A stretch of 64,000 bases of DNA, from positions 124,001-188,000 of the forward strand of contig NC_058342.1 in the NCBI RefSeq assembly GCF_905475395.1, read 5' to 3'. The position numbers and the translations under genes were made by a program. The notes below the pieces were generated by a model that was not told the DNA's origin, made no database searches, and saw only the letters and a list, made by a program, of their open reading frames with translations. The DNA comes from Chrysoperla carnea (Eukaryota > Arthropoda > Insecta > Neuroptera > Chrysopidae). This document shows positions 15,119 through 19,955 of the stretch, piece after piece (positions within the stretch are counted from its first letter, which is position 1; each line of letters opens with the position of its first letter).

Positions 15119-15158
15119 GGCAACAGCCATACCACGTTGAAAACACCGGTTCTCGTCC
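15119..15158 (+). pseudogene. 5S rRNA 5' part (nt 1-40), interrupted by element A
   Basis: Nucleotides 1-40 of 5S, ending in the left target duplication GGTTCTCGTCC (15148-15158). The internal promoter is on the far side of the insertion, so this part should be silent unless the element supplies a promoter. Confidence 0.94.
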
Positions 15159-15386
15159 GTCCGATTATCTGTACAGCGTTCATACAGTACAGTACAGTGA
15201 ATTGTTGAAGCAAATTATTGTATAATTACATTCAAAGCGAAAACAATTTCATACACACACCTACAGAACAAGTTAAATCAAATATAAAAAAGTATAAAAA
15301 CAAACTATAAAATAAGTGACGGGCGTAGCCAAACAAAAAAAAGGGGGCGACCGAGTCGCTCCCCTGCTATCACTAAAGTTTTAAAA

Positions 15387-16733
15387 GTGCAACCCGATGA
15401 CGTCGGAATACAACAAAGCACCGAAGAAGAAGCCAACAAAATAGAAAAAATAGTTAGTGAAAATAGCGAGAACACAAGTGCATTGCCTCCAAGAATGAAA
15501 AACCAAAACAAAAACAATATACAAAACATTTTCAAAAAACAAACAGAAGTGCAAGTGCAAGTGCCCACAAAAAATAGATTTAATCCCCTAACCACTGAAG
15601 AAGGTCAAATAGTGGAAGATGTGGAACAAGAAGACACAGACCCAAAAGAAATTAATGAAAATGACAAAAACACAGAAAGGACACAAGGAGGTAAGAATAA
15701 ACCACCTCCAATTGTTATACACAGCACTCCAAATAACCATAAGGAGTTCATGGAGCAAATAAAGGAACATGTGAAAAAGGGATTCCATGTGAAATACACG
15801 TTCAAAAAAACGAATCTATTCATCCATGACTCAAATGAATATAAAAACTACGTCAAAATGCTAGACAACGAAAACATGGAGTTCCATACATACACGGAAA
15901 GGACAGAAAAACACCACGCCTTCGTATTGGTCGGGCTACCAAGAGGAATCGACGAAGAGGAAATTAAGCAAGACATAGAGAAATGCCTCAAAACAAACAT
16001 TATTAAAGTATATCCAATGAGATCCTCCTACAGATCTCTATATCTTGTGATCACCGGACAAAGCACGTCCCTAAAACAACTAACCCAAGAAGTTAAATAT
16101 GTGTACAACGTAAAAATTACCTGGGAAAGGCACAGGAACGCCAAACTAATTATCCAGTGTCACAGATGTCAGGCCTGGTCACATGCCACTACGAACTGTA
16201 GAATGAACCCAAAGTGCCTAAAATGCGCAGGACCTCACTGGAGCCGTGACTGTACAATAAAAGAAAACACGGAAGAAAATAAAAAACTTTTAAAATGTGC
16301 AAACTGTGAAAATAACCACCCGGCAAACTCTACAGAATGCCGAATTTATATCAACAAAATCGAGCAGATAGAAAGGAGAAGAAAAACAAACACGGTCCCT
16401 GTAAGAAATCAACAAAAATTCGTGCCAGCACCACTACCTCCAACAAATGCCTGGGCAATGGGAAACCCATTCACTCAAAATGATAGACCCACCCAAGTGT
16501 ACGCTCATGTACACAGCCAAGCACCAACACAAACAACATCCATATCTACTACTACTAACATAAACAATTTGGTAAGTGAGTTTGACACATTAAACAAATT
16601 AATAGATGTAGAAAGAATGCTAAAATATGTAAAAGACCTAAACCATGACCTTATGAAATGCAAAAACGAATTAGAGAAATTCATGGTTTTCAACAACTTT
16701 TGCACAAAAAATTTTAGCCAATGTCCGCCGTAA
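15387..16733 (+). CDS. ORF1 (gag-like RNA-binding protein) of element A
   Basis: 448 codons counted from a GTG; the first ATG is codon 37 (15495) and the frame is open from 15288, so the true start is unresolved. The N-terminal part is hydrophilic and Glu/Lys/Asn-rich. A middle region (about 105-250) with HAFVLVGLPRGIDEEEI resembles the zinc-finger-associated domain of insect jockey-type ORF1 proteins. Three zinc knuckles follow: C-X2-C-X4-H-X4-C (258-271), C-X2-C-X3-H-X4-C (277-289) and C-X2-C-X3-H-X6-C (304-318). Such proteins coat the element RNA and carry it to the nucleus. Just upstream of the GTG, in the same frame, is an AT-hook-like RGRPSRSP (15342-15365). Confidence 0.9.
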   Translation: MQPDDVGIQQSTEEEANKIEKIVSENSENTSALPPRMKNQNKNNIQNIFKKQTEVQVQVPTKNRFNPLTTEEGQIVEDVEQEDTDPKEINENDKNTERTQGGKNKPPPIVIHSTPNNHKEFMEQIKEHVKKGFHVKYTFKKTNLFIHDSNEYKNYVKMLDNENMEFHTYTERTEKHHAFVLVGLPRGIDEEEIKQDIEKCLKTNIIKVYPMRSSYRSLYLVITGQSTSLKQLTQEVKYVYNVKITWERHRNAKLIIQCHRCQAWSHATTNCRMNPKCLKCAGPHWSRDCTIKENTEENKKLLKCANCENNHPANSTECRIYINKIEQIERRRKTNTVPVRNQQKFVPAPLPPTNAWAMGNPFTQNDRPTQVYAHVHSQAPTQTTSISTTTNINNLVSEFDTLNKLIDVERMLKYVKDLNHDLMKCKNELEKFMVFNNFCTKNFSQCPP

Positions 16734-19556: not shown

Positions 19557-19758
19557 AGGCAATGGGCAATATAAGTTTGCCACAGCTATTGCCTAAAACA
19601 TAAAACAGGTTTTTAAAAATTTTCCTGTAAAGAGCATATCAACAAAATTAACTTAACATATACCTGCTCAAACAAATAAATTAAATATCATAAGCATAAT
19701 TGCGACACAGCAATCTGCATGAAAGAAAAATAAGTTAGGATGAAAGCCTTTTAAGGCT
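19557..19758 (+). other. Structured 3' UTR of element A
   Basis: AGGCAAT/ATTGCCT (19557-19563, 19588-19594), ACAGG/CCTGT (19605-19609, 19624-19628) and AGCC/GGCT (19745-19748, 19755-19758). These occupy the same places as the three hairpins of element L but with different, still complementary, stem sequences. Confidence 0.6.
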
Positions 19759-19866
19759 AATAACCTATAATAGTAAATAAAAGTTTTGTAATATATGTTA
19801 TGTATGTAATGTATTGTATTTTTAAATGTTGATTAATAAACTGTTTTTGAATTTGAATTTGAATTT

Positions 19867-19955
19867 GGTTCTCGTCCGATCACCGAAGTTAAGCAACATT
19901 GGGCACAGTCAGTACTTGGATGGGTGACCGCTTGGGAACACTGTGTGCGGTTGCC
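19867..19955 (+). pseudogene. 5S rRNA 3' part (nt 30-118) after element A
   Basis: Identical to the intact gene from nt 30 on, with the internal promoter and T5 terminator preserved. The upstream neighbour is now the (TTTGAA) tail of the element. Confidence 0.94.

Follow-up and report, generated by a model that had tools for sequence, protein, structure and literature searches.

Probable jockey-type retrotransposons at one exact site in the 5S rRNA genes of Chrysoperla carnea histone arrays

Introduction

Some non-LTR retrotransposons insert into ribosomal RNA genes; among them, R2 uses a restriction-like endonuclease and Mutsu belongs to the Tx1/L1 group. As far as the accessible text of the cited sources goes, R1 and R2 have their insertion sites in 28S rDNA (PMC2048585), Mutsu is a zebrafish element that targets 5S rRNA genes (PMC3706591, PMC11202950) and target-specific families belong mostly to the early-branched, Tx1 and R1 groups (PMC4640811, 2015). 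In the beetle Tribolium freemani, the available sections of a 2024 report describe 5S arrays with Jockey-like elements, present as segments of ~5 kb and mostly in 5S; 32 of 113 5S copies are without the first 30 bp, and these 'pseudogenes' are found only in Jockey-containing arrays (PMC11202950). Linked histone and 5S clusters are already known in insects, according to the portion consulted of PMC11354594.

Here we analyze a window of 64,000 nucleotides of Chrysoperla carnea (G000:C6:124001-188000) together with the genome, a 559-Mb assembly of 337 contigs. Our analysis indicates that a two-ORF, jockey-type non-LTR lineage very probably targets a single exact position in the 5S gene, where it integrates by target-primed reverse transcription.

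Results

The window is a tandem array with a unit of ~6.46 kb that carries H3, H4, H2B, H2A, H1 and one 5S gene, so that each unit of the host array links one 5S gene to a complete histone quintet (8664-15158 and its repeats). Among named proteins, those closest to H1 come from a sandfly and a leaf beetle. Rfam found seven 5S loci, two uninterrupted and five in which a non-LTR element separates nt 40 from nt 41, and set the length of the gene at 119 nt rather than the 118 nt of the preceding sequence-only reading. The empty targets and one host unit are as follows.

8664-8782, + strand: uninterrupted 5S rRNA gene, empty target (Rfam)
9209-14775, mixed strands: histone quintet of one host unit (ORFs; core histones named by eye)
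9209-9619, - strand: H3 (ORF, named by eye)
9945-10256, + strand: H4 (ORF, named by eye)
11120-11491, - strand: H2B (ORF, named by eye)
11804-12178, + strand: H2A (ORF, named by eye)
14065-14775, + strand: H1 (Pfam on the copy in the neighbouring unit)
48631-48749, + strand: uninterrupted 5S rRNA gene, empty target (Rfam)

At the occupied sites, the 11-bp target duplication is GGTTCTCGTCC, which occurs 11 times on the + strand of the window and not once on the - strand: twice in the empty genes, eight times beside four full-length elements and once after a partial element. Together with Rfam, these positions bear out what had been read by eye, namely element starts at 15159, 26332, 37500 and 55124, insertion between nt 40 and 41, a duplicated sequence at both ends of all four full-length elements, and 5S-sense orientation. 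These four elements form family A.

15119-15158, + strand: 5' half of 5S (nt 1-40) before A1, ending in GGTTCTCGTCC (motif positions)
15159-19866, + strand: element A1, full-length, 4708 bp, 5' extra GTCCG (sequence comparison)
15288-16733, + strand: A1 ORF1 frame, 481 aa between stops, three CCHC knuckles (ORF, motif scan)
16721-19387, + strand: A1 ORF2, 888 aa from ATG, APE-type endonuclease and reverse transcriptase (ORF, Pfam, structure)
19737-19766, + strand: 3'-UTR hairpin-forming stretch AGGATGAAAGCC..GGCTAATAACCT of A1 (alike in A, B, C and D)
19867-19956, + strand: 3' half of 5S after A1 (Rfam, motif positions)
26292-26331, + strand: 5' half of 5S before A2 (motif positions)
26332-31034, + strand: element A2, full-length, 4703 bp, both reading frames broken (ORFs, alignment)
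31035-31124, + strand: 3' half of 5S after A2 (Rfam, motif positions)
37460-37499, + strand: 5' half of 5S before A3 (motif positions)
37500-42201, + strand: element A3, full-length, 4702 bp, ORF1 frame broken, ORF2 open (ORFs, alignment)
42202-42291, + strand: 3' half of 5S after A3 (Rfam, motif positions)
55084-55123, + strand: 5' half of 5S before A4 (motif positions)
55124-59835, + strand: element A4, full-length, 4712 bp, 5' extra C, ORF2 open, ORF1 frame 473 aa (ORFs, alignment)
59836-59925, + strand: 3' half of 5S after A4 (Rfam, motif positions)

A3 carries 20 substitutions that are private within the window, nine of them in alignment columns 3579-3838, where seven of the nine are G to A. 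It lies only five substitutions from copy L040, and its private changes therefore mark a subfamily rather than a patch of mutation. The ORF1 frame of A1-A4 has no ATG before an RGRP motif (15288-15500 in A1, the same stretch in A2-A4), a motif that we take to be AT-hook-like.

The partial element at 1-2239 had been counted as the same element but belongs to a separate family, B, with 72.6-72.7% DNA identity to A1-A4 over 1.26 kb. The window thus holds two families, A with four copies and B with one, that are ~73% alike in DNA. Once the upstream contig is included, B is complete, has the same site and the 11-bp duplication on both sides, and keeps both frames open between stops (ORF1 486 aa, ORF2 890 aa). 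P0243, a protein of the read collection, appears by eye to be near-identical to B ORF1.

1-2239, + strand: B, 3' part of a complete 4878-bp element with its 5' end upstream at L048:5362 (adjoining 8 kb upstream)
1-1623, + strand: B ORF2, C-terminal part with the RT domain (ORF, Pfam)
2240-2329, + strand: 3' half of 5S (nt 30-119) after B, its first 11 nt being the duplicated target (Rfam)

Occupancy of five sites in seven is correct for the window but, as a general level, it describes a local patch. Genome-wide, 644 uninterrupted 5S sites stand against 873 5S 3' halves (≤2 mismatches each), a difference of ~229 interrupted sites that is approximate since the two patterns differ. A and B account for only ~87 of these ~229 halves, and the interrupted share is, very roughly, between 12% (A and B alone) and 26% (counting every 3' half that no 5' half adjoins).

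Site specificity was counted with a 24-nt pattern from the A 3' end that holds no 5S letters, at ≤2 mismatches. The pattern occurs at 80 genomic places and its reversed control at none. Mapping of these A 3' ends to their flanks, as the sequence-only reading had proposed, placed 79 of 80 in 5S sequence, with all 79 in sense orientation; 28 of 30 places that were fetched run into canonical 5S. By coordinates, 76 of the 80 ends form the canonical junction, and the remaining four were read singly. One (C141:146631) is a canonical A junction, and another (C119:184019) is an A copy in 5S joined 2-3 nt further in. The third, at C1:44745127, is a 5'-truncated A copy of 154 bp. It sits in a dispersed 5S pseudogene that has diverged, and GGTTCACAACC, the form that the target site takes in this pseudogene, flanks it on both sides. 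In the fourth, at C6:6843842, A is truncated at position 2213 and its end lies in tRNA-like sequence, with a rearranged, inverted flank. L049 and L083 are among the 5'-truncated copies.

A second pattern that spans the A end and 5S matched 79 places, three of which had ends outside the first pattern. The count of 80 therefore covers 3' ends within two mismatches: it missed these three 5S-borne A ends as well as L104, an A copy that has no tail, and could likewise miss off-target copies with altered 3' ends. An earlier query of 161 nt, 94 of them from 5S, had 672 candidates, of which 40 were scored; being biased to 5S, it was excluded from the specificity count. A profile scan with the ORF2 alignment found one locus in viral contigs and 18 in genome contigs, all distant LINEs, and an 18-letter 5S pattern had no match in the viral contigs.

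The B 3' end (≤3 mismatches) occurs at nine genomic places, eight of them in 5S sequence. Four are copies 98-100% identical to B at the canonical site, and four are older relatives in diverged 5S copies, with best segments 86-95% identical to B, three at 11-12.5 Mb of C6 and one at 489 kb. The ninth (C5:76.2 Mb) lies in the tRNA-like sequence that also holds the A exception, and the two end at the same base. That sequence (L079:2908-2979) has 1161 genomic places within three mismatches; many of the places listed are ~300 bp apart or form inverted pairs, like a tRNA-derived repeat. We considered it as a second target but, with two ends against 1161 places, take these insertions to be chance aided by the TTGA match. 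The two off-target ends, the only ones among A and B-type ends, both lie at the same base of the repeat, where TTGA matches the tail unit, and specificity is therefore not absolute. With this reservation, we hold with high confidence that the element is strictly specific for its site in 5S.

Further families use the same base. We read 20 5S 3' halves, drawn from 100 of the 873, that appear neither among the A and B places nor among the intact places listed; one further candidate half (C6:10371589) was left out of the 20. An element 3' end adjoins 17 of them upstream: nine are C or C-like (91-100% alike), two D or D-like (87% alike) and six others. L104 is the A copy without a tail, and L106 has B-like coding sequence near the junction (72%). 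Four other diverged tails (L107, L110, L111 and L114), called elements by their AATAAA-like and TTGAAT-like ends, also adjoin this base of 5S and are located away from the main array, on C3 and C6; upstream of the L107 insert the 5S 5' half is also present. The three halves that no element flanks comprise two intact genes with one variant base (L105, L109) and L108, which is unassigned. For C and D the site comes from the 3' junction, with one junction each traced into ORF2. In one C copy and one D copy, no stop interrupts the part of ORF2 that was read (865 and 898 aa). Identity to A in ORF2 is 55% for C and 69% for D, and among A, B and D it is 67-71%.

A hairpin-forming stretch, AGG-(AUGAA)-AGC..GCU-(AAUAA)-CCU, lies ~100-150 nt before the 3' end and is common to A, B, C and D, with loops that differ. 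It is also found in five older B-type copies (L089-L093), one of which has a changed stem base, and as variants in L107 and L111, the former with an outer pair GGG/CCC; it was not seen in the 3' tails inspected of L106, L110 and L114. In other LINEs, 3' structure serves recognition by the reverse transcriptase, a role that this hairpin may share. The tails that follow are (TTTGAA)n or (GTTGAA)n, with several forms among A copies. Just past the ORF2 stop, A and B each have a stretch that resembles a tRNA, by eye A-box-like in B (1660-1736) and B-box-like in A (19434-19510), and each is followed by a T run. A tRNA-like fold had been suspected in the A and B 3' UTRs; Rfam (E up to 1) and ARAGORN found none, folding gave z -2.0 for A and -0.6 for B, and we record it as no more than a possible resemblance.

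The marks of target-primed reverse transcription, a target-site duplication and 5'-truncated copies, are present. In the mechanism that we propose, the ORF2 endonuclease would determine specificity and nick the antisense strand opposite the nt 29/30 boundary. Element RNA would be recognized through the conserved 3' hairpin, and reverse transcription would run from the freed 3' end through the tail. A later cut of the sense strand after nt 40 would then yield the 11-bp duplication. The host presumably tolerates such insertions, because hundreds of 5S copies are uninterrupted.

Alternatively, RNA polymerase III factors or a chromatin tether might direct insertion, with the exact base as a secondary preference. 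Such a tether would suit the finding that both non-5S copies lie in tRNA-like sequence. We nevertheless think it rather unlikely, as different families settle on one and the same nucleotide, in diverged pseudogenes too, and the many tRNA-like places hold just two A/B-type ends, each at the match to the TTGA tail. Direct targeting by the element's own machinery remains our preferred reading.

The coding sequences bear on the kind of element involved. ORF2 has an N-terminal Exo_endo_phos-type endonuclease and a reverse transcriptase, the arrangement of APE-type non-LTR elements: Pfam reported PF00078 (RVT_1, 5e-41), PF14529 (1e-17) and PF03372 (Exo_endo_phos, 6e-11), and a motif scan found YADD, GDLN and SDHN. 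An AlphaFold model of ORF2 (mean pLDDT 76.6; poorly modeled at 648-731) matched LINE-1 ORF2p and the endonuclease domains of L1, TRAS1 and R1Bm in a structure search, and a sequence search with the endonuclease domain alone found no solved structure. ORF1 has three CCHC motifs by motif scan and no significant Pfam domain, with no RRM or PRE_C2HC match above cut-off. Relative to a type I ORF1 (an RRM followed by three CCHC), the CCHC motifs are seen and an RRM-like match is sub-threshold only (E 0.17); type I ORF1 occurs in other clades besides jockey, by the accessible text of PMC4120745.

Relatives of ORF2 were taken as the best 120 of 3849, of which 68 entered a first tree and 33 the careful trees. 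A, B and D share a clade with P0001 and P0002 (support 100/100), and C falls in a four-row group (100/100) with P0008, P0015 and P0020. The C group joins the A/B/D clade at 93/92, below the tool's star, within a 25-row clade (100/99) that excludes X-element-like proteins of Formica and Anthophora. C ORF2 is 99.8% identical to P0008, so the read collection holds the same or a very near species. Where automated names state an element, it is X-element: two of the best 120 ORF2 relatives (P0075, P0076) and one of 93 for ORF1 (P0277). The original call of a jockey type draws support from these few X-element-named relatives and from the three CCHC knuckles of ORF1; the trees cover X-element-like rows but no R1, Tx1, CR1 or jockey references. 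From these sequence comparisons, jockey affinity is probable.

Membership of another APE-type clade with site-specific members, R1 or Tx1, appears very unlikely. In its favor, the endonuclease of TRAS1, which we take to be an R1-clade element, gave the highest target-normalized TM (0.81, against 0.76 for R1Bm) among endonuclease-only chains of the 50 matches listed. R1 and Tx1 elements carry a CCHC motif in ORF2, and the motif scan found no CCHC-like motif in ORF2 here, which speaks against membership of Mutsu/Tx1. Also against this assignment, the only relatives that name an element say X-element, and PF07530 appears in 16 of 93 ORF1 matches, all weak (E 3.5e-17 or worse). R1 and Tx1 are, on the other hand, the APE-type groups named as target-specific in the available part of PMC4640811.

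Individual copies indicate how the elements came to fill the array. Twenty A copies were picked by hand, non-randomly, from 40 places scored with the 5S-containing query, a sample that says nothing on the off-5S share. The 3' junction is visible in all 20 and the 5' junction in 18; L028 stops before its 5' end is reached, and an assembly gap cuts off L031. The 11-bp duplication is present in all 18 copies with both ends in view, which with A1-A4 makes 22 full-length copies, each with both flanks exact. Their 5' extras are none, C, CCC or GTCCG, and both long frames are intact in 16 of the 22 (481 and 889 aa between stops). A1-A4 differ pairwise by 0.28-0.70% and the host units by 0.08-0.16%; for elements against host units, Fisher tests on four pairs chosen from six, which are not independent, gave p 0.04, 6e-5, 3e-4 and 2e-6. 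Gene conversion of units could be another way to low unit divergence.

Because 5' junctions and tails differ and divergence is greater among the elements than among their host units, we favor repeated insertion; that a few ancient insertions multiplied with the array through unequal exchange and gene conversion, with no site-specific activity, is most improbable, for although the elements sit in a homogenized tandem array and some copies are near-identical (2-3 substitutions), diverged families and 5'-truncated copies share the site and the dispersed pseudogene copy duplicates that pseudogene's own 11 nt.

Discussion

A, B and D share their exact site with C, which belongs to another sub-clade. 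On this ground, we lean towards an old jockey-clade lineage in which a single 5S-specific ancestor, arisen independently of Mutsu, gave rise to the whole 25-row clade and to the elements of Tribolium freemani. A jockey-type lineage of which several families keep to one base of 5S would add a separate instance of an APE-type endonuclease gaining strict specificity. Here, diverged families share one small target inside histone clusters.

The sequence-only reading knew of no 5S-specific jockey element. Tribolium freemani qualifies this insofar as Jockey-like elements occur in 5S arrays there too; the sections available of that report associate them with satellite and 5S arrays, and hold no insertion site, duplication or specificity (PMC11202950). 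The open-licence literature, which leaves Repbase reports and most subscription papers uncovered, held no other jockey element in 5S genes. The 3' halves described here start at nt 30 and lack 29 nt, and the beetle copies lack the first 30 bp; the beetle 'pseudogenes' may therefore be explained as insertion scars at the same site.

Mutsu resembles the element described here in being a non-LTR element with a 5S target and differs in its fish host and its length of ~5.5 kb, as given in the accessible text of PMC11202950; an independent origin of the two is likely. Like R1 and R2, whose sites are given in PMC2048585, the element occupies an exact site in a multicopy rRNA gene, disrupts some copies and has variable 5' junctions, but the target gene and the clades are different, and its endonuclease is APE-type by Pfam. 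Among insect LINEs of the X-element and jockey clade, its ORF1 and ORF2 relatives with element names are X-element-like. Those LINEs are dispersed and have poly(A) ends, whereas the element described here has one target and a short-repeat tail.
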